From Cellulomonas hominis (GTDB lineage: Bacteria > Actinomycetota > Actinomycetes > Actinomycetales > Cellulomonadaceae): a DNA stretch of 34,251 nucleotides. Within the stretch, counting starts at the first letter, position 1, and each line of letters opens with the position of its first letter. The DNA lies in the NCBI RefSeq assembly GCF_005239125.1, contig NZ_SZYE01000020.1, forward strand, positions 1-34,251. Reading direction: 5' to 3'. Positions 11,809-33,269 of the stretch are shown here, one piece after another. The position numbers and the translations under genes were made by a program. Under the pieces are notes generated by a model. It was not told where the DNA came from, searched no databases, and was given only the letters and a program-made list of their open reading frames with translations.

Positions 11809-11822
11809 TGGACTCGATCCCA
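11809..11822. promoter_or_regulatory. Upstream auxiliary LacI-type operator
   Basis: TGGACTCGATCCCA differs from the promoter-proximal site at 11887-11900 by one base. The centres are 78 bp apart, a distance that would allow looping. A weaker third match, CGGGATCGTTTTCC, lies at 11828-11841. Confidence 0.55.
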
Positions 11823-11851
11823 CGTCCCGGGATCGTTTTCCCGCACCGCGC

Positions 11852-11881
11852 TTGACGCTCTCTCGCGCGCCCTCCTATGCT
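11852..11881 (+). promoter_or_regulatory. Promoter of the ROK-SIS-glycosidase operon
   Basis: TTGACG (11852-11857) and TATGCT (11876-11881) with an 18-bp spacer form the best sigma-70-type promoter in the window. Transcription would start near 11888, leaving a GC-rich leader of about 100 bases before the ATG at 11990. Confidence 0.75.
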
Positions 11882-11886
11882 CATTC

Positions 11887-11900
11887 TGGAATCGATCCCA
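11887..11900. promoter_or_regulatory. LacI-type operator at the ROK operon transcription start
   Basis: TGGAATCGATCCCA pairs at 6 of 7 positions about CG. It lies 5 bp after the -10 box, over the expected +1, the classic position for a repressor. Confidence 0.72.
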
Positions 11901-11989
11901 GAGGGTCGCCCGGCATCGTCGCCGGCGGCGCCCGGGGTCCCGCGCGCCGCCGCACCCGGCCGCGCGCCCGCCAGGGGTCTGGAGGACGC

Positions 11990-13084: not shown

Positions 13085-13751
13085 CCCCACCGCCCCGATG
13101 CTCACGCCGGCCGCGCTCTCCGCGCCGGCTGCGACCGCCGCACCCGCCGCGCCGCCCCCCGCCGCCCCGCCCGGCGACTGGCTGCACGCCCACCTCGCCG
13201 CGCACGCCGACGTCGCCGGTGCGATGGTCGGCCTCGCCGAGCGCATCCGCGCGGCCGGCGAGCTCGTCCGCGACACGTTCGCCGGCGGCGGGACGCTCTA
13301 CACGTTCGGCAACGGCGGCAGCGCCGCGGACGCGCAGCACCTGACCGGCGAGCTCGTCGGCCACTACAAGCGCGACCGCCGCCCCCTGCCCGCCGTCACG
13401 CTCAGCACGGACCCGACGTCGATGACCTGCATCGCGAACGACTACGCCTACGAGGACGTGTTCGCCCGCCAGGTGGAGGCCCTCGCGCGGCGCGGCGACC
13501 TCGTCGTCGCGTTCACCACCAGCGGCCGGTCGCCGAACGTCGTCCGCGCGCTGGCGGCCGCGCGGGCCAACGGCGCCAGCACGCTGCTCCTGGCGGGCGG
13601 CGACGGCGGTCCCGCGCGGGAGCACGCCGACCACCTGCTGCTCGTCCCGTCGTCGGCGACGCCGCGCATCCAGGAGATGCACACCCTGGTGCTGCACGTG
13701 ATCAGCGAGATGGTGGACGCCTGGGCGGCCGGCGAGCCACCCGCCGCCTGA
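13077..13751 (+). CDS. SIS-domain sugar phosphate isomerase, GmhA-like
   Basis: A 224-aa protein with a Pro/Ala-rich leader (about 30 residues) followed by a single SIS domain. GNGGSAADAQH (G78 onward), E92 in GELVGHY and H202 in QEMHTLVLH match the pattern of D-sedoheptulose 7-phosphate isomerase, where a Glu and a His are catalytic. The phosphate-binding TTSGRSPNV is clear. The GTG start has GGAGG 6 bp upstream and overlaps the ROK stop by 8 bases. GmhA normally feeds heptose synthesis. Here it stands between a sugar kinase and a glycosidase under a LacI-type operator, so it may isomerise the phosphorylated sugar in a catabolic route (inference). Confidence 0.8.
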   Translation: MSDPTAPMLTPAALSAPAATAAPAAPPPAAPPGDWLHAHLAAHADVAGAMVGLAERIRAAGELVRDTFAGGGTLYTFGNGGSAADAQHLTGELVGHYKRDRRPLPAVTLSTDPTSMTCIANDYAYEDVFARQVEALARRGDLVVAFTTSGRSPNVVRALAAARANGASTLLLAGGDGGPAREHADHLLLVPSSATPRIQEMHTLVLHVISEMVDAWAAGEPPAA

Positions 13752-18126: not shown

Positions 18127-19032
18127 TCAGAGCCGGTCGGCCAGCTCCGTCAGCGTCTCCGACGCCCCCGCGTCCAGGGTCAGCGTCGCCAGCGGGTCCC
18201 CGCGGGTCGCGCCGCGGTTGAGGATGACGACCGGCTTGCCCGCCTCGGCGGCGTGCCGGACGAACCGCAGCCCGGACTGCACGGTCAGCGACGACCCGGC
18301 GACCAGCAGCGCGTCCGCCTCGTCCACGAGCGCGTACGCCTCGGCGACCCGGGGCCCGGGCACCGTCTCGCCGAAGTAGACGATGTCCGGCTTGAGCATG
18401 CCACCGCACGGGCCGTCGCCGCCGTCCGGGTCGGGCAGCCAGCAGTCGACGACCCGGAAGTGCGAGGTCTGCTCGATGACGGCGTCGGCGTCCGGGGCGA
18501 TCTCCACGTCGCCGACCGCGCCCACCGACTCGGCGAACCCGGGGTTCGCCGCCTCCAGCCGCTCGGCGAGCTCCTCGCGCGACACGGTGCGCCGGCACCG
18601 CAGGCAGACGACGCGGTCGTACCGGCCGTGCAGGTCGATGACCCGGCGCGACCCGGCCTGCTCGTGCAGCAGGTCGACGTTCTGCGTGATGACGCCCAGC
18701 ACCACGCCGTGCGCCTCCATCGACGCGAGCGCGCGGTGCCCGGCGTTGGGGTGCGTGCGGTGCACGTACCGCCAGCCGACGTGGTTGCGCGCCCAGTAGT
18801 GCCGGCGGAACCCCTCGTCGCCGACGAACTGCTGGTAGGTCATGGGGTTGCGCGGCGGGGAGTCGGGGCTGCGGTAGTCCGGGATGCCGGAGTCGGTCGA
18901 CAGGCCCGCCCCCGTGAGCACCGTGAGCCGGCTGCCGCGGAGCAGCCGGACCGCGTCGTCGACGGTCCCCGGGTTCGGCCGGACGGCGTCGTGGAGGGGG
19001 ATCGGCAGGCGCGGGGGTGTCACGTGCACCAC
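18127..19032 (-). CDS. Sir2-family NAD-dependent protein deacylase (sirtuin)
   Basis: A 301-aa sirtuin that removes acyl groups from lysines using NAD+. The NAD-binding TGAGLSTDSGIPDYR spans residues 40-54, TQNVD residues 116-120, and the catalytic H135 lies in DLHGRYD. The zinc site has CLRC and, after a 50-60 residue insertion, C(W)...C in VVDCWLPDPDGGDGPCGG. GSSLTVQ and ILNRG complete the Rossmann fold. The GTG start has GGGAG 7 bp upstream. The gene is divergent from tRNA-Ser, with 55 bp between them, and is not obviously linked to the sugar genes. Sirtuins of this type may act on acetyl-CoA synthetase, but the target is unknown here. Confidence 0.9.
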   Translation of the reverse strand: MVHVTPPRLPIPLHDAVRPNPGTVDDAVRLLRGSRLTVLTGAGLSTDSGIPDYRSPDSPPRNPMTYQQFVGDEGFRRHYWARNHVGWRYVHRTHPNAGHRALASMEAHGVVLGVITQNVDLLHEQAGSRRVIDLHGRYDRVVCLRCRRTVSREELAERLEAANPGFAESVGAVGDVEIAPDADAVIEQTSHFRVVDCWLPDPDGGDGPCGGMLKPDIVYFGETVPGPRVAEAYALVDEADALLVAGSSLTVQSGLRFVRHAAEAGKPVVILNRGATRGDPLATLTLDAGASETLTELADRL

Positions 19033-19087: not shown

Positions 19088-19177
19088 GGTAGCGTGTCCG
19101 AGCGGCCTAAGGAGCACGCCTCGAAAGCGTGTGTGGGTGAAAGTCCACCGTGGGTTCAAATCCCACCGCTACCGCCA
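19088..19177 (+). tRNA. tRNA-Ser (anticodon CGA)
   Basis: Acceptor arms GGTAGCG (19088-19094) and CGCTACC (19167-19173) pair fully; G19174 is the discriminator and CCA (19175-19177) is encoded. The anticodon stem CACGC/GCGTG encloses the loop CTCGAAA with CGA at 19122-19124. A long variable arm (GTGGGTGAAAGTCCAC) is typical of serine tRNA, and GGTTCAAATCC is the T loop. A TACTGT -10 box lies at 19072-19077. Confidence 0.96.
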
Positions 19178-19459: not shown

Positions 19460-19494
19460 TGCCAAAACGTTGTGGCAGAACGTTTTGGCAACTG
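19456..19494. promoter_or_regulatory. Composite palindromic operator of the DFA operon
   Basis: CAGTTGCCAAAACGTT (19456-19471) and AACGTTTTGGCAACTG (19479-19494) are perfect 16-bp inverted arms around a 7-bp centre (GTGGCAG). Each arm ends in AACGTT, itself a LacI-type core. The left half, TGCCAAAACGTTGTGGCA (19460-19477), is an 18-bp palindrome with one mismatch; a weaker one is centred at 19481/19482. The site lies over the expected transcription start. The LacI at 24099 is the likely binder. Confidence 0.75.
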
Positions 19495-19524: not shown

Positions 19525-20835
19525 ATGCCCACGAGCGACAAGCAGAAGAGGACCCTCCGCCGAGTCCTGCCGGCGGCAGGCGCGGTGCTCGCACTCGGCC
19601 TCAGCGGGTGCGGCGCCGGGGGGACCGGTCCGAACTCGGACGACGACGCGCTCACCGTCCTCGTCGAGGGCGGCGGCCGTGCCGAGCTGACCCCCATCGC
19701 CGACGCGTTCACGGCGGAGACCGGGACGTCTGTCACCTTCGTCGAGCTCCCGTACGACTCGCTGTACGAGCGGTTGAACACCGAGCTGTCCGGCGGCGAC
19801 GTGAGCTTCGACGTCGCCGCGGTCGACGCCATCTGGCTGAGCGCGTTCGGGCCCGGGATGGTCCCGCTCGACGACATGTTCACCGACGCGGTCCAGGACG
19901 ACCTGTTCCCCTCCCTCGTCCAGGAGGCGCAGGTCGACGGGCACTACGTGGGCATGCCCGCGTGGACGAACGCCGAGGTCCTGTACTACCGGACCGACCT
20001 GTTCTCGGACCCGGCGCAGCAGGCGGCGTTCCGGGCCGAGTACGGGCGCGAGCTGACGCCGCCGACCACCTGGGACGAGTACCTGGATGTCGCCGAGTTC
20101 TTCACGCAGGACACCGACGGCGACGGCTCGACCGACCTGTACGGGACGGACGTCAAGGGTGCTGTCGAGACCGAGTGGCTCTCACTGGTGCTGCAGGCCG
20201 GCGCGGAGGGCATGGTCCTGGACACCGACGGGAACGTCATCGTGAACGATGCCGAGCACAAGGCGGCGCTGGACGCCTACGTCGCCCCGGTCGAGGCGGG
20301 CATCGCACCCGCCGGCGCCACCCAGATGGACTGGGCGACCGCGCAGAACCTGTTCAACCAGGGGCAGCTGGCGATGACGCGGTTCTGGGCGCACGCCTAC
20401 ACCCAGATCCCCGAGGACTCGCCGGTGCACGGCAACGTCGGGGTGACCACGATGCCTGCCGGCCCCGGCGGCCCTGCTGCCGTCCCCGGCGCCTGGTACC
20501 TGTCCGTGCCGCAGGCGACGACGAACCAGGACAAGGCCGAGGAGTTCATCCAGTTCGTGTTCGACCACAACGAGCTCGGCCTGGACACCGACCTCGGCCT
20601 CGCCGCCACGATCCCGGCGCTCGAGGCCGGGGAAGCGGACGGTCGGGAGAACCTCGGAGCGCTGATCGCCGCGCTCGACGCCCCCGGCACCGCACCGCGA
20701 CCCGCCACGGACAAGTGGCAGGAGATCGTCGACTCGGTGCTCATCCCGATGCTCCAGGAGGCCACGGCCGGCGGTGCCGACACCCAGGCGCTGCTGGACC
20801 GCGCAGCGGAGCAGATCGAGGCCGTCGTCGGCTGA
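19525..20835 (+). CDS. Sugar ABC transporter substrate-binding lipoprotein
   Basis: A 436-aa extracellular binding protein anchored to the membrane by a lipid. The signal peptide (basic KQKRTLRR, hydrophobic VLPAAGAVLALGL) ends in the lipobox LSGC with C29. The mature part is a family 1 solute-binding fold (LTVLVEGGGRAELTPIADAF). A calcium-loop-like DTDGDGSTD near residue 196 is common in this group. The ATG has AAGGAG 9 bp upstream. It opens an operon of two permeases, a GH91 enzyme, LacI, a GH32-like enzyme and a fructokinase. The ligand is therefore probably a difructose dianhydride or short fructan (inference). A stable hairpin follows the stop codon. Confidence 0.9.
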   Translation: MPTSDKQKRTLRRVLPAAGAVLALGLSGCGAGGTGPNSDDDALTVLVEGGGRAELTPIADAFTAETGTSVTFVELPYDSLYERLNTELSGGDVSFDVAAVDAIWLSAFGPGMVPLDDMFTDAVQDDLFPSLVQEAQVDGHYVGMPAWTNAEVLYYRTDLFSDPAQQAAFRAEYGRELTPPTTWDEYLDVAEFFTQDTDGDGSTDLYGTDVKGAVETEWLSLVLQAGAEGMVLDTDGNVIVNDAEHKAALDAYVAPVEAGIAPAGATQMDWATAQNLFNQGQLAMTRFWAHAYTQIPEDSPVHGNVGVTTMPAGPGGPAAVPGAWYLSVPQATTNQDKAEEFIQFVFDHNELGLDTDLGLAATIPALEAGEADGRENLGALIAALDAPGTAPRPATDKWQEIVDSVLIPMLQEATAGGADTQALLDRAAEQIEAVVG

Positions 20836-20842
20836 CGGATCG

Positions 20843-20880
20843 CCGGCCGAGGCGCAGACCCTGCTCCGCGCCTCGGCCGG
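20843..20880 (+). other. Intercistronic hairpin after the binding-protein gene
   Basis: CCGGCCGAGGCGC (20843-20855) pairs perfectly over 13 bp with 20868-20880 around a 12-base loop, between the binding-protein and permease genes. No T run follows. It may cap the upstream message and lower expression downstream, as known for the malE-malF gap. A similar hairpin follows the other binding-protein gene (31784-31811). Confidence 0.7.
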
Positions 20881-20916
20881 TCCCTGCCCTCGACGGCATC
20901 CACGAAAGGTCACTCC

Positions 20917-21804
20917 GTGCGACTCACCGATCGCCGCTACGCGTTGGCGCTGGCCGCGCCCGCTGCGCTGTTCCTGCTCGTCTTCGTCGCCTGGCCGCTC
21001 GTCCGGCTCGTGTACGACAGCTTCTTCGACATCTCGCCGATCGCCGGCGGGGCGCGCGACTTCAACGGCTTCGGCAACTACGCCGAGGTCTTCTCGAGCT
21101 CCGCGTTCCTCGGCGCCGCGGGGCGTACGGCGGCCTACACCGCGATCGTGGTGACGTCCGAGTTCGTCCTCGGCTTCGCCGTCGCGCTGCTGTTCTCGGC
21201 TCTCGGCCAGCGGTCGTCCATCTTCCGCACGATCTTCCTGTACCCGCTGATGATCGCGCCGGTGGTGGCCGGGCTGCTGTGGCGGTTCCTGCTCATCGAC
21301 AACCTCGGCATCGTCAACCACCTGCTGCACAGCGTCGGTGTCCTGGCCTCGCCGGGCGACATCGGGTGGCTGTCCGACCCGGACATCGTGCTGTGGGCCG
21401 TGGCCATCCCCGACATCTGGCTGACCACGTCGTTCATGACGCTGATCATCTTCGCCGGGCTGCAGAACGTCCCCGGAGATCTCCTGGAGGCCGCGCGGCT
21501 CGACGGCGCGCGGTTCCCGACCCTGCTGTGGCGGATCATCCTCCCCCTGCTGAGGCCGGTCGTCGCGGTCGCGCTGATCGTGCGGGGCATCGACGCCGCC
21601 AAGGCGTTCGACATCATCCTCATCCAGACCGGGGGCGGTCCGCAGAACGCCTCCCAGACCCTGTCGCTGCTGATCCACCAGACGATGGTCCGCTACGGCG
21701 ATCCCGGCCTCGCCTCGGCGATGGGCACCGTCTACCTGCTGGCGATGATGATCGTCGCCGGCCTGGCGGTCTGGTTCATCTGGCGACCTGGAGCAGATTC
21801 ATGA
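20917..21804 (+). CDS. Sugar ABC transporter permease, MalF type (CUT1)
   Basis: A 295-aa membrane permease with six predicted segments (first: YALALAAPAALFLLVFVAWP) and the EAA loop EAARLDGARFPTLLWRIILP that docks the ATPase. The GTG start is preceded by AAAGG. Its stop overlaps the next start (ATGA). Together with the partner at 21801 and the binding protein at 19525 it forms a complete importer except for the ATPase, which is presumably a shared MsiK. The cargo inferred from context is a difructose dianhydride or fructooligosaccharide. Confidence 0.92.
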   Translation: MRLTDRRYALALAAPAALFLLVFVAWPLVRLVYDSFFDISPIAGGARDFNGFGNYAEVFSSSAFLGAAGRTAAYTAIVVTSEFVLGFAVALLFSALGQRSSIFRTIFLYPLMIAPVVAGLLWRFLLIDNLGIVNHLLHSVGVLASPGDIGWLSDPDIVLWAVAIPDIWLTTSFMTLIIFAGLQNVPGDLLEAARLDGARFPTLLWRIILPLLRPVVAVALIVRGIDAAKAFDIILIQTGGGPQNASQTLSLLIHQTMVRYGDPGLASAMGTVYLLAMMIVAGLAVWFIWRPGADS

Positions 21805-22640
21805 ACGGCCTCACCGTCCGCCGCCCCGCCACCAAGGCCCTGCTGTGGGCCCTGCTGGTCGTCACGGTCGTGCTGTACGCGTTCCCGTTCCTGTACGTCC
21901 TGCTCACCAGCTTCAAGAACCCGTTCGAGACCCTGGCGGTCCCGCCGCAGATCATCCCGTCGCGGTGGACCCTGGACAACTACGTCGACGCCCTGGCACG
22001 CAACGGGGTCGTGGCGTCCTTCATCAACAGCGTCACGACCGCGATCATCTCCACCGCGCTGTCGCTGGCGCTGGCGATCCCGGCCGCGTACGCGATCACC
22101 CGGTTCCGGACCAGGAGCGGGCGGGTGCTGTCGATGACGGCGCTCGTCACGCGCATGGTCCCGCCGGTCGCCGTGGGCATCCCGCTGACGACGATGATCG
22201 CGGCCATGCGCCTGACCGACACCCCGACGGGACTGGCGATCGCCCACACGACCATCTCGCTGCCGCTGTCGATCCTGCTGATGGCGAGCTTCTTCGAGGC
22301 CGTTCCGGTCGAGATCGAGGAGGCGGCGAAGGTGGACGGGTGCAGCCGCCTGCGGGTGCTGTGGTCGGTCGTCATGCCCGTGGTCTCCGGGGGTGTCGCC
22401 GTCACGGCGATCTTCGCGTTCCTCGCGTCGTGGAACGAGTTCCTGTTCGCGACCCTGCTGACGTCCGTGCGAGCTCAGACCACCCCGATCATGATCGCGA
22501 ACTTCCAGACTCAGTTCGGGCTCGACTGGGGTCCGATGACGGCGCTGGCGACCCTCTACTCGGTCCCCGTGATCGTCCTGACGATCTTCCTGCAGCGGCA
22601 CATCGTCGCCGGGCTGACCCTCGGCGCGGTCAAGGGATGA
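21801..22640 (+). CDS. Sugar ABC transporter permease, MalG type (CUT1)
   Basis: A 279-aa permease with an N-terminal membrane segment (ALLWALLVVTVVLYAFPFLY), further segments, and the EAA loop EAAKVDGCSRLRVLWSVVMP. It ends with the common MalG tail LTLGAVKG. The ATG overlaps the previous stop by 4 bases, which fixes the start even though the same frame stays open upstream. Its own stop overlaps a possible upstream ATG (22637) of the GH91 gene, so all these genes are read as one transcript. Confidence 0.92.
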   Translation: MNGLTVRRPATKALLWALLVVTVVLYAFPFLYVLLTSFKNPFETLAVPPQIIPSRWTLDNYVDALARNGVVASFINSVTTAIISTALSLALAIPAAYAITRFRTRSGRVLSMTALVTRMVPPVAVGIPLTTMIAAMRLTDTPTGLAIAHTTISLPLSILLMASFFEAVPVEIEEAAKVDGCSRLRVLWSVVMPVVSGGVAVTAIFAFLASWNEFLFATLLTSVRAQTTPIMIANFQTQFGLDWGPMTALATLYSVPVIVLTIFLQRHIVAGLTLGAVKG

Positions 22641-22711
22641 GCGCCGCGGGCAACGAGGGATCCGCCCCGGCTGCTGCCGGGCAGCACCTGCGCGACGAAG
22701 GGCATCAGCAC

Positions 22712-24049
22712 ATGGCCAGCACCAACCGGTACGACGTCACCCAGTGGCCCGGCGGCAACCCCTACGAGGACATCGGTGCCGTGATCAACGGGATCATCGC
22801 CGACGTCAAGGCCCGGCAGCAGCACCCCGACGTCCACGACGGAGGCAAGCCGGGCGCGGTCATATCCATCCCGCCGGGTGACTACCGGCTGCGGACGCAG
22901 GTCGTGATCGACATCAGCTACCTGCGGATCGAGGGGTCCGGGCACGGCTTCACCTCGTCGAGCATCCGGTTCAACGTGCCGCAGGAGGAGTGGAGCGACC
23001 TCCACGAGCTGTGGCCAGGAGGAAGTCGGGTCCTCGTCGACCTGCCGATCGAGGACGGCGCCGACCAGCGCGCCGGTGCGGCGTTCTACGTCGACCGTTC
23101 CGGGAGCCCCCGGATCAGCTCGGTCGAGTTCGCGGACTTCTGCATCGACGGGATCCACTTCACCGAGGACGGCTCGGACGTCGACCCCGAGAACACCTAT
23201 GTCAACGGCAAGACGGGCATCCTCGTGGCCGGCGCCAACGACTCGTTCCGTGTCACCGGGATGGGCCTGGTCTACCTGGAGCACGGGCTGACGATCCACC
23301 ACGCCGACGCGCTGTCCGTCCACGACAACTTCATCGCCGAGTGCGGCAGCTGCATCGAGCTCCGCGGCTGGGGCCAGGCGTCGAAGGTCACCGACAACCT
23401 GATCGGGGCCGGCCCGAAGGGCTACTCGATCCTCGCGGAGAACCACGGCGGGCTCCTCGTGACAGCGAACAACGTCTTCCCCCGCGGGTCGAGCAGCATC
23501 GAGCTGCACGGCGTCCGGCGGTCGAGCATCACCAACAACCGGCTGCACGCGTTCTACCCCGGGATGGTGGTGCTCGCCGACGGCAGCTCCGAGAACCTGA
23601 TCGGGTCGAACCACCTCCTGCGCGACCACGAGCCGTGGGCCCCGTTCTTCGGCGTCGACAACGGCCGGGACGACACCTACGGCCTGGTCCGCATCGACGG
23701 TGAGCACAACTCCGTGATCGGGAACCACTTCTCCGAGGTGGTGGACGCGCAGGCGATCCGCCCGCCGGGCGCGACACCGGTGATCGTGCGGCTGGTGTCC
23801 GGCACCGGCAACTACGTCGCCAGCAACCACGTGGTCGGCCGCGACGTGCGAGCCGCGGCGGGCGAGTCGGCGTACGCCGCCCAGGTCGACGCGCTGCTGA
23901 GCACCGGGACGGCGGGACGCCTCGCGGTGACGTCCGTCCTGGTCGACGACGGGTCCCACCACAACACGGTCCTCGACTCGGGGGACGAGACGCAGGTGAA
24001 GATGGACAGGGCGGTCAACGCCTTCAGGCCCACACCCACCGTCGCCTGA
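22712..24049 (+). CDS. GH91 beta-helix enzyme: probable intracellular difructose dianhydride hydrolase
   Basis: A 445-aa right-handed beta-helix protein of the inulin fructotransferase family. NPYEDIGAVINGIIADVKA, KPGAVISIPPGDYRL, VVIDISYLRIEGSGHGFTSS, NGKTGI, NDSFRVTGMGLVYLEHGL and FIAECGSCIEL follow remembered Arthrobacter/Bacillus GH91 sequences closely. Two acid pairs spaced 11 residues apart, D199/E210 and D205/E216, are candidates for the reported catalytic Asp/Glu. Inulin fructotransferases are secreted. This one has no signal peptide from either possible start (22712, with GAAGGG 9 bp upstream; or 22637, overlapping the permease stop). It follows an importer. That favours the homologous DFA III hydrolase, which opens DFA III to inulobiose in the cytoplasm. 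A transferase or a DFA I enzyme cannot be excluded. Confidence 0.85.
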   Translation: MASTNRYDVTQWPGGNPYEDIGAVINGIIADVKARQQHPDVHDGGKPGAVISIPPGDYRLRTQVVIDISYLRIEGSGHGFTSSSIRFNVPQEEWSDLHELWPGGSRVLVDLPIEDGADQRAGAAFYVDRSGSPRISSVEFADFCIDGIHFTEDGSDVDPENTYVNGKTGILVAGANDSFRVTGMGLVYLEHGLTIHHADALSVHDNFIAECGSCIELRGWGQASKVTDNLIGAGPKGYSILAENHGGLLVTANNVFPRGSSSIELHGVRRSSITNNRLHAFYPGMVVLADGSSENLIGSNHLLRDHEPWAPFFGVDNGRDDTYGLVRIDGEHNSVIGNHFSEVVDAQAIRPPGATPVIVRLVSGTGNYVASNHVVGRDVRAAAGESAYAAQVDALLSTGTAGRLAVTSVLVDDGSHHNTVLDSGDETQVKMDRAVNAFRPTPTVA

Positions 24050-24098
24050 CGGCGGCGCGGGCGCAGCTGCAGAGGACCGACCGCGGATAGGCGAGGCG

Positions 24099-25133
24099 AT
24101 GAAGCAACGACGAGTGACGATCAAGCAGGTGGCCGCCGAGGCCGGGGTCTCGATCACGACCGTCTCCCACGTCCTGAACGACGTCCCCGGGGTCCGGGTG
24201 AACCCGGCGACGCGTGAACGTGTCCACGAGGCCGTGGCGAGGCTCGGCTACGTGCCCAACAGCCTCGCCCAGTCGCTGCGCACGCAGCGGTCGAACACCA
24301 TCGGGCTCATCGGGGACGAGATCGCCACCACCCCCTTCGCCGGGAAGCTCGTCCTCGGCGCGCAGGAAGTGGCACTGGCCCGCGACGCCGTCGTCCTCGT
24401 CGTGTCGACCGGCTACCAGCGCGACGTCGAGAACCGGGAGATCGCCGAGCTCCTGCGCCGGCAGGTCGACGGGATCCTCTACGCGTCGATGTTCCACCGG
24501 CGGGTCGAGCTGCCGGCGCAGCTGGCGTCCGTCCCGACGGTGTTCGTGAACGCCGAGTGCGCCACGCCCGGGGTGCCGTGGGTCACCCCTGACGAGGTGG
24601 CCGGCGGCAGGGACGCCGCGGAGGTGCTCCTCGCGGCCGGCCACCGTCGGCTCGGGTTCATCAACAACGTCGACGAGATCCCGGCGTCCGCCGGCAGGCT
24701 CGAGGGGTTCCGTTCCCGCGCTGCGGAGGCCGGCGTCCCCGCGGCGGACGTGGCCGTCGTCACCGCGGAGACCACTCCCGCCGGCGGCTACGCGGCCGCA
24801 CGAGAGCTGCTGACGAGCGAGCGGCGGCCCACCGCGGTCTTCTGCTTCAACGACCGGCTCGCCATGGGCGCGTACCGGGCCGCCGCCGAGCTCGGCCTGC
24901 GCGTACCGGAGGACGTCTCCGTCGTGGGCTTCGACAACCAGGAGTACGTCGCCGACGGGCTGTACCCCGGCCTGACGACGATCGAGCTCCCGCACTTCGA
25001 CATGGGCGTGTGGGCCACGGAGCACCTCTTCGACCAGATCGACGGGGTGCACGAGGGCGCCGCGTCCGCGCGCTTGCGCGGGCCGGTCATCCACCGAGGA
25101 TCCGTCGCGCCGCCCCCCGCGACTCAGCACTGA
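24099..25133 (+). CDS. LacI-family regulator of the DFA/fructan operon
   Basis: A 344-aa repressor. The helix-turn-helix VTIKQVAAEAGVSITTVSHV spans residues 5-24, followed by the hinge SLAQSLRT and a sensor domain from about residue 65 (IGLIGDEIATTPFAGKLVLG). It is clearly paralogous to the LacI at 27139: both have the DE.A..PFAG, GAQE, G.LYA.M.HR, FCFND/FCGND and SVVGFDNQE/SIVGFDNQE stretches, which differ from the LacI at 10676. It lies inside the operon, 49 bp after the GH91 gene, with a weak ribosome site. The composite operator at 19456-19494 is its likely target and a fructose-containing disaccharide its likely inducer (inference). Confidence 0.93.
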   Translation: MKQRRVTIKQVAAEAGVSITTVSHVLNDVPGVRVNPATRERVHEAVARLGYVPNSLAQSLRTQRSNTIGLIGDEIATTPFAGKLVLGAQEVALARDAVVLVVSTGYQRDVENREIAELLRRQVDGILYASMFHRRVELPAQLASVPTVFVNAECATPGVPWVTPDEVAGGRDAAEVLLAAGHRRLGFINNVDEIPASAGRLEGFRSRAAEAGVPAADVAVVTAETTPAGGYAAARELLTSERRPTAVFCFNDRLAMGAYRAAAELGLRVPEDVSVVGFDNQEYVADGLYPGLTTIELPHFDMGVWATEHLFDQIDGVHEGAASARLRGPVIHRGSVAPPPATQH

Positions 25134-25151
25134 CCTGGAAGGTACGACTCC

Positions 25152-26120
25152 ATGCCGAACGCCCTGCCCGACGCCTGGACCTGGGACATGTGGTTCGCCG
25201 ACGACGGGACGCACCACCACGCGTTCTACCTGAAGGCCTCGCGCGCGCTCGGGGACCCGGAGCGACGCCACTTCTCCGTCACCGTCGGCCACGCCGTCTC
25301 CACGGACCTGCGCACGTGGCACGAGGTCGCGGACGCGCTGATCGCGTCCGACCAGCCGGCCTTCGACGACTTCACCACGTGGACCGGGTCGATCGTCCGG
25401 GACGCCGACGGGATCTGGACGATGTTCTACACGGGAACCTCGCGGGCCGAGAACGCCACCGTGCAGCGGGTCGGGGTCGCGCGATCGACCGACCTGTACA
25501 CCTGGTCCAAGGCGAGCTCAGAGGCCGTGTGCGAGGCCGACGCGCGCTGGTACGAGACGTACGACGGGGCCAGCTGGCCCGACGAGGCGTGGCGCGACCC
25601 GTGGGTCTTCCGGGACGGCGACCGGTGGCACATGCTGATCACCGCCCGGGCCAACCAGGGTGACCTCGACGACCGCGGCGTCATCGGCCACGCCACCTCG
25701 ACGGACCTGCGCAGCTGGGCCGTGCAGCCGCCGCTGTCTCAGCCGGGCGCCGGATTCGGCCACCTGGAGGTGCCGCAGGTCGCGACCGTCGACGGCCGGC
25801 ACGTGCTGATCTTCTCCTGCCTGAACACCGAGCTGACCCGGGCGCGGCGCGCCGACGGCGAGCGCGGGGGTGTCTGGTCCGTGCCGATCGACGACACGAC
25901 CGGCCCGTACGACGTCGCCAAGGCGACCCGCCTGACCGACGAGACGCTGTACGCCGGCCGGCTCCTGCAGGGCCGGGACGGAGCCTGGTGGCTGTTCGCG
26001 TTCGACCACGTCGACGCTTCGGGGGCGTTCGTCGGGTCGCTGTCCGACCCGATGCCGGTCGGCTGGGACGCGAGCGGGCGACTGCGGGTGGCCGACGGTC
26101 GTTTCGACGAGCTGGTCTGA
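25152..26120 (+). CDS. Short GH32/GH68-like five-blade beta-propeller fructosidase
   Basis: A 322-aa cytoplasmic protein that is all catalytic propeller and lacks the C-terminal sandwich of typical GH32 enzymes. The GH32 WxNDPNG motif is replaced by TWDMWFADDG; its W-D-x-W (D12) recalls the GH68 nucleophile motif, with D17/D18 as alternatives. The stabilising Asp is D149 in WRDPWVF and the acid/base is E206 in GHLEVPQV. FTTWTGSIV and VGVARSTDL mark other blades. GGAAGG precedes the ATG. Between a GH91 enzyme and a fructokinase, the expected task is cutting inulobiose or another fructobiose into fructose (inference). An arabinan- or mannoside-active GH43/GH130-like enzyme is the less likely alternative. 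Confidence 0.75.
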   Translation: MPNALPDAWTWDMWFADDGTHHHAFYLKASRALGDPERRHFSVTVGHAVSTDLRTWHEVADALIASDQPAFDDFTTWTGSIVRDADGIWTMFYTGTSRAENATVQRVGVARSTDLYTWSKASSEAVCEADARWYETYDGASWPDEAWRDPWVFRDGDRWHMLITARANQGDLDDRGVIGHATSTDLRSWAVQPPLSQPGAGFGHLEVPQVATVDGRHVLIFSCLNTELTRARRADGERGGVWSVPIDDTTGPYDVAKATRLTDETLYAGRLLQGRDGAWWLFAFDHVDASGAFVGSLSDPMPVGWDASGRLRVADGRFDELV

Positions 26121-26132
26121 GCGGAGTCGGGC

Positions 26133-27053
26133 ATGGGACGGTTCCTCATGATCGGCGAGGCTCTCGTCGACGTCGTCCAGGCCGCGGACGGCGCGCGCAC
26201 GTGCCACCCCGGAGGCAGCCCTGCGAACGTCGCGCTCACCACCGCGCGACTCGGCGACGACACGCGGCTCCTCACGTGGATCGCACCGGACGAGCTCGGT
26301 GCCGTGGTGCGCGAGCACCTCACCAGGGCCGGGGTCGTCGTGCTGCCGCAGTCGGTCGGTGCGACGCGGACGTCCACCGCGAAGGCACTCGTCGACGACA
26401 CCGGGGCAGCGCACTACGAGTTCGACCTGGAGTGGACCCTCGCCCCCGCTGCCGTCGACCCTGATACGACCGTCGTGCACACCGGGTCGATCGCGGCGCT
26501 GGCGCCGACCAGCCCGCCGGGCGCGTTGTCCGCCCTGCTCGCCGCAGCCCACGAGCGCGCCACCATCACCTACGACCCGAACCTGCGACCGACCGTCATG
26601 GGGCCCGTGGACCTGGTCCGCGGCGAGGTCGAGCGTCTCGTCGCGCGGGCCGACGTGGTGAAGGTCTCCGACGAGGATCTCGCGTGGCTGTACCCGGGCA
26701 GCGACCCGCACGACGTGCTCGGCCGGTGGGTGGGAGACCACGCGCTCGCGATGGGCGTCCTCACCCGCGGCGCGCAGGGCCCGTCCGCGATCCTCCGGAG
26801 CGGGGAGCGCGTGGACGTCCCGGCGCCCGCCGTCACCGTGGTGGACACGATCGGCGCCGGCGACTCGTTCATGGGCGGGTTGCTGCACGCGCTCGACCAG
26901 GACGGTCTGACGGGAGCCGGAGGCCGGGACAGGCTCGCCGCGCTGACCGCGGGCGAGGCGAGAGCGGTCCTCGCGGTCGCCGCGCGGGTCGCGGCGGTGA
27001 CGGTCAGCCGCGCGGGGGCCAACCCGCCGACGCTCGAGGAGCTCTCGGCGTGA
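26133..27053 (+). CDS. PfkB-family fructokinase
   Basis: A 306-aa ribokinase-fold sugar kinase, expected to turn fructose into fructose 6-phosphate with ATP. The N-terminal motif GGSPANVALTTARLG is the PfkB signature 1 and GEALVDVV the opening strand. DTIGAGDSFMGG is signature 2, with catalytic D244. ITYDPNLRP is typical of fructokinases. It starts 12 bp after the GH32-like gene with GGAG 6 bp before the ATG, and ends the DFA operon. The downstream promoter at 27073 begins a new unit. 2-Keto-3-deoxygluconate or other sugars are possible substrates of the family, but the fructan context favours fructose. Confidence 0.88.
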   Translation: MGRFLMIGEALVDVVQAADGARTCHPGGSPANVALTTARLGDDTRLLTWIAPDELGAVVREHLTRAGVVVLPQSVGATRTSTAKALVDDTGAAHYEFDLEWTLAPAAVDPDTTVVHTGSIAALAPTSPPGALSALLAAAHERATITYDPNLRPTVMGPVDLVRGEVERLVARADVVKVSDEDLAWLYPGSDPHDVLGRWVGDHALAMGVLTRGAQGPSAILRSGERVDVPAPAVTVVDTIGAGDSFMGGLLHALDQDGLTGAGGRDRLAALTAGEARAVLAVAARVAAVTVSRAGANPPTLEELSA

Positions 27054-27138: not shown

Positions 27139-28170
27139 ATGGAGCAGCGAAGGCGCGCCACCATGCGCGACGTCGCCGACCGCGCCGGCGTGTCCCAGGC
27201 GACCGTCTCCCTCGTCCTCAACGACGTCGCGGGCGGCCGGGCCACAGAGGAGACGCGGGCGCGTGTCCTCGCTGCCGCCCGTGACCTCGAGTACCGCACC
27301 AACGCCTTCGCGAAGACGCTGCGCAGCGGGGACTCGGGGATCATCGGGTTCATCTCCGACGAGGTCGCCAGCGCGCCGTTCGCCGGTGCGATGCTCAAGG
27401 GGGCGCAGGAGCTCGCCTGGCAGACCGGCAACGTCATCCTCAGCGTGGACACGTTCGGTCGGCCCGACCTCGAGGCAGCCGCGGTCGACATGATGCACTC
27501 CTACCAGGTGCGAGGAGTGCTCTACGCGGCGATGTACCACCGGGTGCTGGACCTGCCTGCGGCCCTGCGGGACCTGCCGGCGGTCGTGCTGAACGCCCGC
27601 GAGGCGTCCGGGCGGGTCCCGAGCTTCTTCCCGGACGAGGAGCAGGGCGGCTACACCGCCACCCAGCAGCTGCTCGACGCGGGCCACGACCGCATCGCCT
27701 TCATCAACATCCAGGAACCCGACAGCGACCTGCCGGCCGGTATCGGCCGGCTCGCGGGCTACCGGGCGGCGCTGGAGGAGCGCGACGTGCCGTTCCGCGA
27801 AGAGCTCGTGCGCTACGGGGGCGGTGTGGTCGAGGACGGCCTCGCGCTGGCCCGCGACCTCATGGAGGCCGAGCGCCCGACCGCGATCTTCTGCGGCAAC
27901 GACCGGACCGCCTGGGGCGCCTACCGCGCGCTGGAGCGCATGGGTCTGCGTGTCCCGGACGACTGCTCGATCGTCGGCTTCGACAACCAGGAGACCCTCG
28001 CCCCGTTCCTGGACCCCGGCCTGACGACGCTGCAGCTGCCGTTCGAGGTGATGGCGCGGCGCGCGCTCGACGCGGTCCTCGACGGCCCCCGGACCGGCTC
28101 CCCGTTCAACCCCGTCGAGTGCGCACTGGTCAATCGAGGATCAGTGGCGAGCGCAAAGGTGACCGCATGA
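27139..28170 (+). CDS. LacI-family regulator of the second fructan operon
   Basis: A 343-aa repressor. The helix-turn-helix ATMRDVADRAGVSQATVSLV spans about residues 7-26; the hinge AFAKTLRSG and a sensor domain from IGFISDEVASAPFAGAML follow. It is a close paralogue of the LacI at 24099, with a different recognition helix (QATVSLV against ITTVSHV), consistent with different operators. GGAG lies 6 bp before the ATG. It opens its own operon and its stop overlaps the start of the first permease (ATGA). Likely targets are the site at 27106-27123 and the palindrome inside the permease gene. Confidence 0.93.
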   Translation: MEQRRRATMRDVADRAGVSQATVSLVLNDVAGGRATEETRARVLAAARDLEYRTNAFAKTLRSGDSGIIGFISDEVASAPFAGAMLKGAQELAWQTGNVILSVDTFGRPDLEAAAVDMMHSYQVRGVLYAAMYHRVLDLPAALRDLPAVVLNAREASGRVPSFFPDEEQGGYTATQQLLDAGHDRIAFINIQEPDSDLPAGIGRLAGYRAALEERDVPFREELVRYGGGVVEDGLALARDLMEAERPTAIFCGNDRTAWGAYRALERMGLRVPDDCSIVGFDNQETLAPFLDPGLTTLQLPFEVMARRALDAVLDGPRTGSPFNPVECALVNRGSVASAKVTA

Positions 28171-29117
28171 CGACCCCGACCTCACCGCCCCGCACCTCCC
28201 CGCCGGCTCGGCGCACGAGCCGATGGCGCCGGATCCGCGCATCGTGGCAGTTATACGTATTACTCCTCCCGGCCGTGCTGTACGTGCTGGTGTTCAAGTA
28301 CTGGCCCATGTACGGCGCCCAGATCGCGTTCCGGGACTACAACCCCGTCGACGGCTTCTCCGGCAGCCCGTGGGTCGGGCTGGAGCACTTCCGGCGCTTC
28401 GTCGAGTCGTTCCAGTTCGAGCGGCTGCTCGCCAACACGCTCACGGTGAACGCGCTCGGGTTGCTGATCGCGTTCCCCATCCCGATCGTCCTGGCGCTGA
28501 TCGTGAACCAGCTGCAGAGCCAGCGGTTCAAGAAGTTCACGCAGACGGTCCTGTACTCGCCGTCGTTCATCTCGGTCGTGGTCGTGGTCGGGATGATCTA
28601 CCTGCTGTTCTCGCCGCGCTCCGGGATCGTCAACAGCGCGATCACCGCCGTCGGTGGGGAACCGGTGTTCTTCATGGGCTCGCCCGAGTGGTTCCGGCCG
28701 CTGTACATCGGGTCCGACATCTGGCAGAACGCCGGGTTCTCGATGATCGTCTACCTCGCGGCGCTGACGGCGATCGACCCGGCGCTGCACGAGGCCGCAC
28801 GGGTCGACGGCGCGAGCAAGTGGCAGCGGATCCGGCACATCGACGTCCCCGGAATCATGCCGGTGATCACGATCCTGTTCATCCTGGCGATCGGGAACCT
28901 GTTCAACCTGGGGTTCGAGAAGGTCCTGCTCATGCAGACCGACCTCAACCTCCCGGCGTCCGAGGTGATTCAGACCTACGTCTACAAGACCGGCCTGCAG
29001 AGCGCCCAGTTCAGCTACTCCGCCGCCATCGGGCTGTTCAACTCCCTCATCAACCTCACCCTCCTGCTGACCTTCAACTGGGTCGCCCGGCGGGCCAACA
29101 AGACGAGCCTGTGGTGA
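28167..29117 (+). CDS. ABC transporter permease, LplB type
   Basis: A 316-aa membrane permease of the LplB/YtcP class used for complex oligosaccharides. A basic tail (RRTSRWRRIRASW) precedes LYVLLLPAVLYVLVFKYWPMYGAQIAFRDY, the typical LplB opening. The EAA loop is EAARVDGASKWQRIRHIDVP. The ATG overlaps the LacI stop by 4 bases. Codons 28-32 contain a near-perfect palindrome and two TTA leucine codons, which are very rare in this GC-rich sequence. With the partner at 29125 and the binding protein at 30155 it should import fructan oligosaccharides, inferred from the GH32 gene in the same cluster. Confidence 0.92.
   Translation: MTTPTSPPRTSPPARRTSRWRRIRASWQLYVLLLPAVLYVLVFKYWPMYGAQIAFRDYNPVDGFSGSPWVGLEHFRRFVESFQFERLLANTLTVNALGLLIAFPIPIVLALIVNQLQSQRFKKFTQTVLYSPSFISVVVVVGMIYLLFSPRSGIVNSAITAVGGEPVFFMGSPEWFRPLYIGSDIWQNAGFSMIVYLAALTAIDPALHEAARVDGASKWQRIRHIDVPGIMPVITILFILAIGNLFNLGFEKVLLMQTDLNLPASEVIQTYVYKTGLQSAQFSYSAAIGLFNSLINLTLLLTFNWVARRANKTSLW
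28249..28264. promoter_or_regulatory. LacI-type palindrome inside the LplB-type permease gene
   Basis: AGTTATACGTATTACT pairs at 7 of 8 positions about a central CG. It lies 82 bp into the coding sequence and is spelled by codons CAG-TTA-TAC-GTA-TTA. It shares GTTATACG with the promoter site of the upstream LacI gene. Confidence 0.6.
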
Positions 29118-29124
29118 TGACGCC

Positions 29125-30111
29125 ATGACCCTGACCACACCCACCCCGCACGCCGCCGGCGACGTGCCCCGGACGACGCGCCTGGACCGCGGCACGGGCG
29201 GCGTCCCGGCGCCGCGGCGCCACGCCTGGCGCGACCGGTTCGCCGACCCCGTGTTCACGGTCCTGACGACCGCGGTGCTGCTCATCGCCGTCGTGGCGAT
29301 CGTGTACCCGCTCTACTTCATCGTGATCGCCTCGGTCAGCGAGCCGTCGGCCATCCTCAACGGCGACGTCTGGCTCTGGCCGCAGGGCTTCACGACGGAG
29401 GGGTACGCGCGGATCTTCTCCGACCCGACGATCCTGCGCGGGTTCGGGAACTCGGTGCTCTACACGGCGCTCGCGACGGCCGTCAGCGTGGTGACGATCC
29501 TGTGCGGGGCGTACGCCCTCTCCCGCAGGGACCTGTACGGCCGCACGTTCTTCATGCTCCTGTTCGTCATCACGATGTTCATCGACGGCGGCCTCATCGC
29601 CCGGTACCTCGTGGTGCGCGACCTGGGGATGCTGAACACGATCTGGTCCGTCGTCCTGCCCGGTGCGGTGGGCGTGTGGAACCTGATCATCGCGCGGTCG
29701 TTCTTCGAGAACAACGTCCCCGGCGAGCTGCGGGAGGCGGCCCAGCTCGACGGCGCGAACGACTTCCGGTTCTTCGCGCAGATCGTCCTGCCGCTGTCGA
29801 AACCGTTGATCGTCCTGATGATCATGATCCACCTCGTCGCGAACTGGAACGCGTTCTTCGACGCGCTCATCTTCCTCAACGACGAGAGCAAGTACCCGCT
29901 GCAGCTGGTGCTGCGCAACGTGCTCATCCAGTCGGAGGCGACGGCCGCCGGCGGCGCCGGGGCGCTCGACTCCTACGCCGCCGCGCAGCGCCTGGGTGAG
30001 CTGATCAAGTACGGGATGATCGTCGTCTCGACGGTTCCCCTGCTGCTCGTCCTGCCGTTCATGCAGAAGCACTTCGCCAAGGGCGCCCTCCTGGGTGCCG
30101 TGAAGAGCTGA
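29125..30111 (+). CDS. ABC transporter permease, LplC/YtcP type
   Basis: A 328-aa membrane permease. A cytoplasmic tail of about 45 residues precedes VFTVLTTAVLLIAVVAIVYPLYFIVIASVS. The remaining segments follow, and the EAA loop is EAAQLDGANDFRFFAQIVLP. The tail PFMQKHFAKGALLGAVKS is typical of the class. The ATG lies 7 bp after the stop of the preceding permease gene, with little ribosome site, so translation is probably coupled. It forms the second half of the importer channel; the ATPase is again not encoded here. Confidence 0.92.
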   Translation: MTLTTPTPHAAGDVPRTTRLDRGTGGVPAPRRHAWRDRFADPVFTVLTTAVLLIAVVAIVYPLYFIVIASVSEPSAILNGDVWLWPQGFTTEGYARIFSDPTILRGFGNSVLYTALATAVSVVTILCGAYALSRRDLYGRTFFMLLFVITMFIDGGLIARYLVVRDLGMLNTIWSVVLPGAVGVWNLIIARSFFENNVPGELREAAQLDGANDFRFFAQIVLPLSKPLIVLMIMIHLVANWNAFFDALIFLNDESKYPLQLVLRNVLIQSEATAAGGAGALDSYAAAQRLGELIKYGMIVVSTVPLLLVLPFMQKHFAKGALLGAVKS

Positions 30112-30154
30112 CCAGCGCCACCTCTTTCGATCCGCCGAGACAAGGAAGAACACG

Positions 30155-31771
30155 ATGAGACACCGCCGTTTTGTCATGCCCGCTCTGCTCGTGACCACCG
30201 CCCTGACGATGACCGCCTGCGGTGGTGGCGGCGACGACAGCTCGTCGAGCGTCGAGGACGCCTCCGCCGACTACGGCTTCCAGGAGGAGGGCCTGCCGAT
30301 CGTCGACGAGACGCTGGCCCTCCGGTTCGGCGGCACGAAGTCCGCGCTCGCGCCGGACTACGCCGACATGGAGCTGGTCCAGCAGTGGGAGCAGGACACC
30401 AACATCGCGATCACGTGGGAGAACCTGCCCGACCAGGTCTACCAGGAGAAGAAGAACCTCCTCCTGGCCAGCGACGACATGCCTGACGTCCTGTTCAACA
30501 CGGGCCTCACCGACTCCGACATCGTGCAGTACGGCGACAACGGGACGCTCGTGCCCCTGGAAGGACTCATCGAGGACTACGCACCGACGCTGACCGCGAT
30601 CCTCGACGAGCGCCCCGACATCCGCGCGGCGCTCACCGCGTCCGACGGCCACATCTACACGCTGCCGTCCGTGGAGGAGCTCGGGATCCTGCAGTACCCG
30701 AACTTCCTGTTCATCAACAAGGCGTGGCTGGACGCGCTGGGCCTGCCCATGCCGAAGACGATCGACGACTACCGCGCGGCGCTCGAGGCGTTCGCGACGC
30801 AGGACCCCAACGGCAACGGCGTCGCGGACGAGATCCCGCTCAGCTTCCGCACCGACTCGTTCTGCGCGAACCCGTGGGACCTGATCGCGGCGCTGGGAGG
30901 CCAGCCGGAGAACAACGACCACCGCATCGTCCGCGACGGAGAGGTCGAGTTCACCGCGGACACCGACGGGTACCGCGCTGGTGTGCAGGCGCTCAACGAG
31001 TGGTACGACGAGGGCCTCATCGACCCCGAGTCGTTCTCCCAGGACGACGTGGCCTATCTCGCCAAGGGGAAGTCGACCACCCCCGTGCTCGGTTCGTTCT
31101 TCTGGTGGGAGGCCAAGGAGATGGTCGGTGAGGACCGCCTGGACGACTACGCGCTGCTCGGCGTGCTCGAGGGCGTCGACGGCGAGCGGCTCGCCAGCGT
31201 CACCAACAACCAGGAGATCAGCCGCGGCGCGATGGCCATCACCCGCGCGAACAAGTACCCCGCGGCCACCATGCGCTGGGCCGACCGGCTGTTCGACCCG
31301 GTGATGTCGGCGCAGGCGAGCTGGGGCCCGATCGGGGTGACGCTCGAGGAGGACGCCGACGGCATCCTCACGCAGATCCCCGCGCCGGTGGGCACCTCCG
31401 AGGGCGAGCGGCGCCAGCAGGTCGCGCCGGGCGGGCCCAAGATCACGACGCGTGAGGACTTCGAGACGGTCGTCGCGCCGGAGCCGCGGGCGAAGGAGCG
31501 CCAGGACCTCGTGACCGAGTTCTACGCCCCGTACCAGGCCAACGACATCTACCCGGCGGTGCTGCTCTCCAACGAGGAACTCGACCAGGTCTCCTACGCC
31601 CAGACGGACATCAACACGCTCGTGAAGGAGAAGTTCGCGAGCTGGGTGGTGCAGGGCGGGATCGACAAGGAGTGGGACGGGTACGTCTCCCAGCTCCAGA
31701 CCCTCGGCGTGGAGGACGTCACCGGCGTCTACCAGGACGCGTACGACCGCTACCAGGACGGCCAGAAGTAG
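30155..31771 (+). CDS. Large substrate-binding lipoprotein, LplA/LipO type
   Basis: A 538-aa extracellular binding protein. The signal peptide (RHRRF, then VMPALLVTTALT) ends in the lipobox MTAC with C22, followed by a Gly/Asp/Ser linker. The mature length of over 500 residues is typical of binding proteins that partner LplB/LplC permeases and hold larger oligosaccharides. A calcium-loop-like DPNGNGVADE occurs near residue 218. The ATG has AAGGAAG 6 bp upstream. Placed between two permeases and a GH32 fructosidase, it most likely binds inulin- or levan-type oligosaccharides (inference). A long GC hairpin follows its stop. Confidence 0.9.
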   Translation: MRHRRFVMPALLVTTALTMTACGGGGDDSSSSVEDASADYGFQEEGLPIVDETLALRFGGTKSALAPDYADMELVQQWEQDTNIAITWENLPDQVYQEKKNLLLASDDMPDVLFNTGLTDSDIVQYGDNGTLVPLEGLIEDYAPTLTAILDERPDIRAALTASDGHIYTLPSVEELGILQYPNFLFINKAWLDALGLPMPKTIDDYRAALEAFATQDPNGNGVADEIPLSFRTDSFCANPWDLIAALGGQPENNDHRIVRDGEVEFTADTDGYRAGVQALNEWYDEGLIDPESFSQDDVAYLAKGKSTTPVLGSFFWWEAKEMVGEDRLDDYALLGVLEGVDGERLASVTNNQEISRGAMAITRANKYPAATMRWADRLFDPVMSAQASWGPIGVTLEEDADGILTQIPAPVGTSEGERRQQVAPGGPKITTREDFETVVAPEPRAKERQDLVTEFYAPYQANDIYPAVLLSNEELDQVSYAQTDINTLVKEKFASWVVQGGIDKEWDGYVSQLQTLGVEDVTGVYQDAYDRYQDGQK

Positions 31772-31783
31772 CACATCGCTCCA

Positions 31784-31811
31784 GGCCGGGGCCGCCGCGG
31801 CGGCCCCGGCC
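31784..31811 (+). other. Intercistronic hairpin between binding-protein and GH32 genes
   Basis: GGCCGGGGCCGC (31784-31795) pairs perfectly over 12 bp with 31800-31811 around CGCG, 13 bases after the stop codon. Without a T tract it may stabilise the upstream message or partly terminate before the GH32 gene. Confidence 0.7.
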
Positions 31812-31853
31812 GGAGCCCGCGCACCACCGCACGCACCGACGTCAGGACTCGCT

Positions 31854-33269
31854 TTGACCGCCACCCAGCCCTCGTCCGTCACCGCTCCCGGCGCGCACGC
31901 GCCGCACCTGCGGCCGCAGGCGCACTTCACCGCCCGGGACACCTGGCTCAACGACCCGAACGGCCTGGTGTTCCACGACGGGGTGTGGCACCTGTTCTTC
32001 CAGAACAACCCGAGCGGGAGCACCTGGGGGAACATCTCCTGGGGGCACGCGGTCTCCCGCGACCTGGTGTCGTGGACCGAGCTGCCCGTCGCCATCGCCG
32101 CCACCTCCGAGGAGATGGTCTTCTCAGGCAGCGCGGTCGTCGACGCCCACAACACCTCGGGCCTCGCGGGTGCCGGCGAGACCGCGCTGGTCGCGGTCTA
32201 CACCAGCTCGTACACCGCGCACTCCGAGCGGCCCGGGATCCAGGCGCAGTCCCTGGCGTACAGCGTCGACGACGGCGCGACCTGGCACCGGTACGCGGGC
32301 AACCCGGTCCTCGACATCGGGTCCGGCGAGTTCCGTGACCCGAAGGTCTTCTGGCACGGCGGCGACGACGGTCGCTGGATCATGGTCGCCGTCGAGGCGA
32401 CCGAGCACCGCGTCGCGATCTACTCCTCCCCGAACCTGGTCGACTGGTCCCTGGAGTCCCGCTTCGGTCCCGCGCACGCCACCGGCGGTGTGTGGGAGTG
32501 CCCCGACCTGTTCCCGCTGCGGGTGCGCGGCACGGACGAGGAGAAGTGGGTGCTCGTCGTGAGCCTCAATCCCGGAGGGATCGCCGGGGGATCGGGCACG
32601 CAGTACTTCGTCGGCGACTTCGACGGCACGGCGTTCACCCCGGACCGGGTCGTCGAGGACGGCGGGATCGAGGACTACGACTGGCTCGACCACGGGCCCG
32701 ACTACTACGCCGGTGTGTCGTTCAGCGGGGCCCCGGGCGGGCGGCGCGTGACGATCGCGTGGGCCAGCAACTGGGCGTACGCCAACTCCACCCCGACCGA
32801 GCCGTGGCGGTCCGCGATGTCGCTGGCTCGCAGCCTGGACCTCGTGCGGTGCGCCGACGGCCGGCTCCGGGTCGCCCAGTCCCCGGTGCTCCCGTCGCCC
32901 GACGATCTGCCGGACGGCGTGCTGGTGCACCGGCTCGTCGTCCCGACGCGTCCCGGTGAGCGGAGCGAGATCGCTCTGACCGCGGGCGACCCCGCCTCCG
33001 CCGAACGGGTGCAGATCGTGCTGGACGGAAGCTCCCGCACCCTCACGTGCGACCGCACCGCCGGTGGCGACACCGGGTTCCACGCCGACTTCCCCGGGTC
33101 GTTCCAGGCGCCGCTGCAGGGAGCCCAGCTCACGGACCTGACGATCGTGGTCGACGGGTGCGTCGTCGAGGTCTACGCCGACGGCGGCCTCGCGACCGTC
33201 ACGATGCTGGTGTTCCCCAGCGCCCCGCTGACGGAGGTCTCCCTCGAGGGGGCGCACGCCGATCGGTGA
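31854..33269 (+). CDS. GH32 beta-fructofuranosidase (exo-inulinase/levanase type)
   Basis: A 471-aa retaining fructosidase without a signal peptide, so acting on imported fructans. The GH32 motifs are complete: nucleophile D34 in WLNDPNG, stabiliser D162 in FRDPKV, acid/base E215 in WECPDLF, and MVFSGSAV. A five-blade propeller (to about residue 330) is followed by a C-terminal beta-sandwich (from about 350; DGSSRTLTCDRT, VVDGCVVEVYADGG). The start is a TTG with AGGA 9 bp upstream; no better start lies before the conserved LRPQAHFT. It is the last gene of the second fructan operon, 82 bp after the binding-protein gene. Whether it prefers inulin, levan or sucrose cannot be read from the sequence. 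Confidence 0.92.
   Translation: MTATQPSSVTAPGAHAPHLRPQAHFTARDTWLNDPNGLVFHDGVWHLFFQNNPSGSTWGNISWGHAVSRDLVSWTELPVAIAATSEEMVFSGSAVVDAHNTSGLAGAGETALVAVYTSSYTAHSERPGIQAQSLAYSVDDGATWHRYAGNPVLDIGSGEFRDPKVFWHGGDDGRWIMVAVEATEHRVAIYSSPNLVDWSLESRFGPAHATGGVWECPDLFPLRVRGTDEEKWVLVVSLNPGGIAGGSGTQYFVGDFDGTAFTPDRVVEDGGIEDYDWLDHGPDYYAGVSFSGAPGGRRVTIAWASNWAYANSTPTEPWRSAMSLARSLDLVRCADGRLRVAQSPVLPSPDDLPDGVLVHRLVVPTRPGERSEIALTAGDPASAERVQIVLDGSSRTLTCDRTAGGDTGFHADFPGSFQAPLQGAQLTDLTIVVDGCVVEVYADGGLATVTMLVFPSAPLTEVSLEGAHADR

Follow-up and report, generated by a model that had tools for sequence, protein, structure and literature searches.

The window analysed here is a stretch of 34,251 nucleotides of Cellulomonas hominis DNA (contig NZ_SZYE01000020.1, assembly GCF_005239125.1), taken from a draft genome of 407 contigs that is 99.99% complete. 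It contains a seven-gene operon at positions 19525-27053 that very probably serves life on the cyclic disaccharide difructose dianhydride III (DFA III). Seven uninterrupted open reading frames lie on the + strand (Table 1). They encode a sugar-binding lipoprotein (SBP1) with a lipobox that, judged by eye, reads LGLSGCG, two permeases (PermA1 and PermB1), a GH91 enzyme, a LacI-family regulator (LacI1), a short GH32-like protein and a PfkB kinase. The gaps between the genes are 81, −4, 71, 49, 18 and 12 bp in gene order, distances short enough to suit a single transcript. Pfam matches agree with the families assigned to the seven proteins, and the gene order given in a preliminary description of this DNA, from binding protein to fructokinase-type kinase, was found intact.

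Table 1. Genes of the predicted DFA III operon and the evidence on which each assignment is based
Feature	Position	Strand	Basis
SBP1, sugar-binding lipoprotein, predicted DFA III receptor	19525..20835	+	PF01547 E 5.5e-29; lipobox by eye
CUT1 permease A (PermA1)	20917..21804	+	PF00528
CUT1 permease B (PermB1)	21801..22640	+	PF00528
GH91, predicted cytoplasmic DFA III hydrolase	22712..24049	+	PF18835; bit scores to DFA-IIIase, lid, tree
LacI1, LacI-family regulator	24099..25133	+	PF00356 + PF13377
Short GH32-like fructosidase, predicted inulobiose hydrolase	25152..26120	+	PF00251 E 6.1e-18
PfkB kinase, predicted fructokinase	26133..27053	+	PF00294 E 4.5e-34

The GH91 enzyme

Along its full length the GH91 protein aligns with solved structures of DFA-IIIase, scoring 749.7 bits (5ZL5) and 748.4 bits (5ZKS). 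The best score against inulin fructotransferases was 378 bits, and the fructotransferase 8HSN gave 278 bits. The protein also carries a lid segment of 31 residues (377-407, between positions 376 and 408). In an alignment of 109 GH91 rows this segment measured 30-31 residues in all 91 high-identity rows and 0-5 residues in the 18 others. A lid over the active site has been tied to DFA III hydrolysis in PMC11538131, which cites the structure paper. A quick tree of the family, in which some branches are long, divided lid-type from lidless proteins by one branch with a support of 100 and placed the window protein in the lid clade; a phylogeny of this kind had been suggested in the preliminary description as a check on the enzyme.

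The catalytic residues are in place. D199 and E210 align with D207 and E218 of the A. aurescens DFA-IIIase, which mutagenesis identified as essential and whose positions follow from the primers used (D in ADAL, E in AECG; PMC4640833). This pair is kept in 109/109 rows, lid-type or lidless. Since it is common to fructotransferases it is not diagnostic of a hydrolase. D205 is kept in only 88 of the 91 lid-type rows.

Hydropathy analysis revealed no hydrophobic leader, either at the start at 22712 or at the alternative in-frame ATG at 22637, in agreement with the earlier statement that the GH91 protein has no signal peptide. The start at 22712 is the likelier one because the sequence ahead of it is not conserved among relatives, many of which have residues like REEP just before the aligned start, a hint that the DNA there holds a ribosome site. 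Unlike the window protein, four lidless GH91 rows (L015, L024, L064 and L103) have RR-type leaders preceding the domain. Judged by its sequence, the window GH91 is a DFA III hydrolase and not a fructotransferase.

Importer, operator and accessory enzymes

To the enzyme an importer appears to be tied. An even sampling of a larger group gave 396 genomes of the order, 15 of which have a GH91 match of any kind and nine a full-length lid-type GH91 (the window genome, G080, G104, G120, G185, G189, G284, G348 and G358). With cut-offs fixed before the search, orthologues of SBP1 (E 1e-60 or better) and of PermA1 (E 1e-75 or better) each occurred in exactly these nine genomes. Neither was present in any of the six other GH91-matching genomes of the sample, of which four have a lidless protein (G109, G368, G198 and G272), one a weak match (G399) and one a fragment (G386). 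Because the same nine of 396 genomes hold both, we regard the importer as tied to full-length lid-type GH91. The preliminary description placed GH91 in the cytoplasm, as an enzyme hydrolysing DFA III that an importer brings in, and this reading is supported by the similarity to DFA-IIIases, the lid, the catalytic residues and the co-occurrence. GH91 is patchy among near relatives: three of 58 such genomes have it, including that of the window, and all three are within the 36 of the window genus. The GH91 protein of one genome of this genus, G032, is identical to that of Cellulomonas sp. 73-92 (L086 and L004).

A similar gene set is retained more widely. We compared the best 80 of 222 related loci, some of which end at contig edges (L025, for example), so that the counts are lower bounds. 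In the 50 actinobacterial loci a PermB1 homologue (at least 60% identity) was present in 49, a LacI1 homologue (at least 43%) also in 49, and an SBP1 homologue (at least 45%) in 45. The 30 loci from Bacillota had a permease of at least 36% identity in 27 cases and a binding protein of at least 33% in 26. This retention of permease and LacI homologues argues that the gene set is not a chance grouping.

Ahead of the SBP1 start, at a distance of 36 bp, lie two LacI-type operator-like sites, at 19462-19475 and 19475-19488, which have one base in common and together make up an inverted repeat; the operator sequence is CCAARWCGTTTTGG. When the motif CCAAAACGTTTTGG was searched with up to three mismatches, these sites were the sole matches in the window. 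With up to two mismatches the whole genome (4.2 Mb) has three such places, the window sites being two of them. The third is at C15:4697-4710 of the window genome (G000), and a LacI-like gene is found at C15:1923-2927. The 200 bases ahead of SBP1 contained the motif, with up to three mismatches, in 32/32 testable stretches, the window included and eight loci cut by the locus edge dropped, as compared to about 0.7 expected from dinucleotide shuffles; this count is not blind, since it was in the window that the motif first came to notice and several loci had been viewed before the consensus was picked. LacI1 is the presumed binding partner of the operator.

The short protein of 322 aa gave no Pfam match to the C-terminal beta-sandwich domain PF08244 and is therefore called GH32-like. 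Its residues D12, R148-D149-P150 and E206, which by eye we take to be the GH32 catalytic motifs, are invariant in 32 aligned members. At E 1e-50 or better, 48 of the 396 genomes have the short family, compared to 15 with any GH91; at E 1e-3 or better the number rises to 96, including weak matches to ordinary GH32 proteins. Five short-GH32 contexts outside DFA operons (L136-L140) contain a LacI gene together with a pair of unrelated permeases, and three of them a PfkB gene as well. One of them is in G104, which has its DFA operon on a different contig. Of the 80 DFA loci nine have the short form and 58 a match to full-length GH32 that covers 200 residues or more, one locus having both, so the fructosidase seems exchangeable. 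Neither form was found within the flanks examined in the remaining 14. The best PDB match of the PfkB kinase is the fructokinase 7FCA (E 1e-57).

Rival substrates and proposed pathway

Several observations weigh against an operon devoted to DFA III. The short GH32-like protein has to be rejected as a DFA-specific enzyme, as it occurs in many genomes without GH91 and, in the five contexts above, beside other importers. The kinase reaches 119.4 bits against the NCBIfam fructokinase model, which has a cut-off of 450, and an NCBIfam scan of ten window proteins returned no model over its cut-off and none naming GH91. G386 (locus L099) has no such importer but keeps the C-terminal part of a lid-type GH91, 138 residues that span the lid and are contained in a 154-residue open frame; this fragment looks like a remnant. 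The importer link appears weaker in Bacillota, and the co-occurrence can also stem from one block of genes that was transferred together. BpDFA-IIIase, which is inactive on DFA I, acts on GF3, GF4 and inulin (PMC11538131), so that imported fructo-oligosaccharides could be substrates.

A further point against the proposal is that Pfam found no ATPase gene among the seven operon genes. The import system was earlier called complete; this holds for the binding lipoprotein and the two permeases and is overstated for the operon as a whole, which lacks the ATPase gene. CUT1-type sugar importers usually share one ATPase and do not require such a gene in the operon. Elsewhere in the window genome the MalK-type OB domain (OB_MalK) is matched twice, and the match on contig C44 scores 443 bits against a UgpC cut-off of 432. 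Beside this UgpC-type ATPase is a sugar-kinase-like gene (L141:667-1602) that by eye resembles the PfkB gene of the operon.

The broad activity of BpDFA-IIIase gives the strongest rival explanation, in which the importer takes up short inulin-type fructo-oligosaccharides or inulobiose that GH91 trims inside the cell, with DFA III as a by-product or side substrate. The GH32-like enzyme and the kinase would suit this use equally well. We nevertheless consider it unlikely, since the lid linked in print to DFA III hydrolysis (PMC11538131, as above) is kept in every high-identity row, the importer tracks full-length lid-type GH91 while the permeases of the five short-GH32 operons outside DFA loci are only 23-31% identical to those of the operon, and a second GH32/ATP-binding cassette (ABC) transporter cluster that adjoins the operon (27139-33269) is perhaps the one for fructo-oligosaccharides. 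Use of another difructose dianhydride, such as DFA I or a caramel isomer, by a GH91 of shifted specificity is highly improbable. In its favour, several such compounds occur in caramelized sugars (PMC11538131); the inactivity of BpDFA-IIIase on DFA I stands against this explanation, as does the link made in PMC11538131 and PMC8605356 between intracellular DFA I use and the unrelated family GH172. That GH91 is an inulin fructotransferase making DFA III from inulin was rejected as very improbable despite the common family and fold, the fructotransferase name of PF18835 and the identical catalytic pair of both enzyme kinds, because its score against fructotransferases is about half of that against DFA-IIIase, a leader is absent and a lid is present, with lidless relatives outside its clade.

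DFA III thus stays the preferred substrate. What the DNA shows directly is the order of the genes, the families they belong to, the catalytic residues, the lid, the conserved operator and the co-occurrence. In the pathway that we infer from them, which assigns substrates to the importer, GH91, the GH32-like enzyme and the kinase, a partner and a ligand to the operator and growth on DFA III to the cell, SBP1 would capture DFA III outside the cell and the two permeases would bring it in, powered by a UgpC/MsiK-type ATPase that is shared and has its gene outside the operon. In the cytoplasm GH91, as a DFA-IIIase, would open the ring reversibly to give inulobiose, and cleavage of inulobiose to two fructoses by the short GH32-like enzyme would draw the equilibrium onward. 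The PfkB kinase would then convert fructose to fructose 6-phosphate. LacI1 would repress the operon from the paired operator ahead of SBP1.

Known systems and the probable source of DFA III

Most of this pathway has precedents. For Blautia, work from 2024 describes a reversible DFA-IIIase that cooperates with a GH32 enzyme, growth on DFA III and a model of import followed by hydrolysis (PMC11538131); the import step is presented in its discussion as a hypothesis only. The Blautia clusters have the DFA-IIIase gene adjoining genes for a GH32 beta-fructofuranosidase and an ABC transporter, as in the window, the clusters of B. hansenii and B. hydrogenotrophica include a sugar kinase, also as in the window, and the pathway model is the same as ours. 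These loci were compared through their published description. The operon of the window differs in that its GH32-like enzyme is short and lacks the C-terminal domain, a LacI gene lies inside it and a conserved operator is present, and its importer is actinobacterial; it is also without the GH39 gene of B. parvula.

A three-stage DFA III pathway was suggested earlier for Arthrobacter (cited in PMC8605356). In P. aurescens TC1 (locus L054) the genes for the binding protein, two permeases, GH91, LacI and PfkB follow the order of the window, and the lid-type GH91 is 70% identical to that of the window. L054 differs in having a full-length GH32 instead of the short form and a second, lidless GH91 adjoining, whereas the window genome has one GH91. 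The Arthrobacter/Paenarthrobacter DFA-IIIases of SK8.001 and H65-7 are treated in PMC4640833, which gives a DFA-IIIase gene as 95.57% identical at the DNA level to a TC1 gene; helped by the match in residue numbers, we infer that the L054 gene at 6001 is that TC1 gene. The DFA I operon of Bifidobacterium dentium (alphaFFase1, GH172) likewise combines LacI, GH32, an ABC transporter and an intracellular DFA-opening enzyme, but this enzyme is from an unrelated family and the sugar is DFA I, not DFA III (PMC8605356). The novelty initially ascribed to a full DFA III route was thus overstated, as both the pathway and the type of cluster are in print, and the finding is correct yet ordinary in kind. 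The present analysis adds the joint occurrence of importer and enzyme, the operator and a genome of scavenger type; a literature search, with most subscription journals outside its coverage, met no earlier account of these.

The window genome has a single GH91 match in all. Its two GH32N matches are both inside the window and both leaderless by hydropathy. The genome therefore showed no secreted enzyme of the GH91 or GH32 family, in searches that did not include GH68. With only one GH91 match, it looks like that of a scavenger rather than a producer of DFA III, and the cell probably obtains it from neighbours or from heated sugars.

A second GH91 match of less than 60% identity was present within the flanks of 12 of the 80 loci, all from actinobacteria, and the 11 that were long enough to judge are lidless. 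Such genes, at 44-51% identity, lie near the DFA-IIIase gene in L054 (1060-2274, − strand), L005, L017, L021, L041, L061, L014, L080, L101 and L102. They retain the catalytic pair, and in L054, L005, L017, L021, L041 and L102 a stop codon just before the domain leaves no room for a leader. By sequence, a leaderless lidless GH91 would match neither the lid-type hydrolases nor the transferases, which are usually secreted.

Upstream of the operon are a tRNA-Ser gene (19088-19177) and, on the opposite strand, a Sir2 gene (18127-19032). The cluster directly downstream encodes LacI2, which is 46% identical to LacI1, a further binding protein, a pair of permeases and a GH32 of full length in which both GH32 domains are present, perhaps for the use of fructo-oligosaccharides or sucrose. 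At 10676-13751 a LacI, a ROK-family and a SIS-domain gene follow each other, with a GH1 gene upstream within 3853-6594; together they appear to form a further sugar-use region.

A wider proposal, to which we give an even chance, is that the operon represents a family of importers devoted to DFA III, linked throughout Actinomycetota with lid-type GH91 and a single kind of operator; its host here would be a scavenger that produces no DFA of its own. The importer would have joined a pre-existing LacI/short-GH32/kinase module that serves other sugars elsewhere. The lid segment together with an importer of the SBP1/permease type offers a simple sequence rule for separating DFA III hydrolases from inulin fructotransferases. 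The analysis names a candidate importer and operator for DFA III, a sugar with prebiotic use, and the genome suggests that there are cells that use DFA III without producing it.

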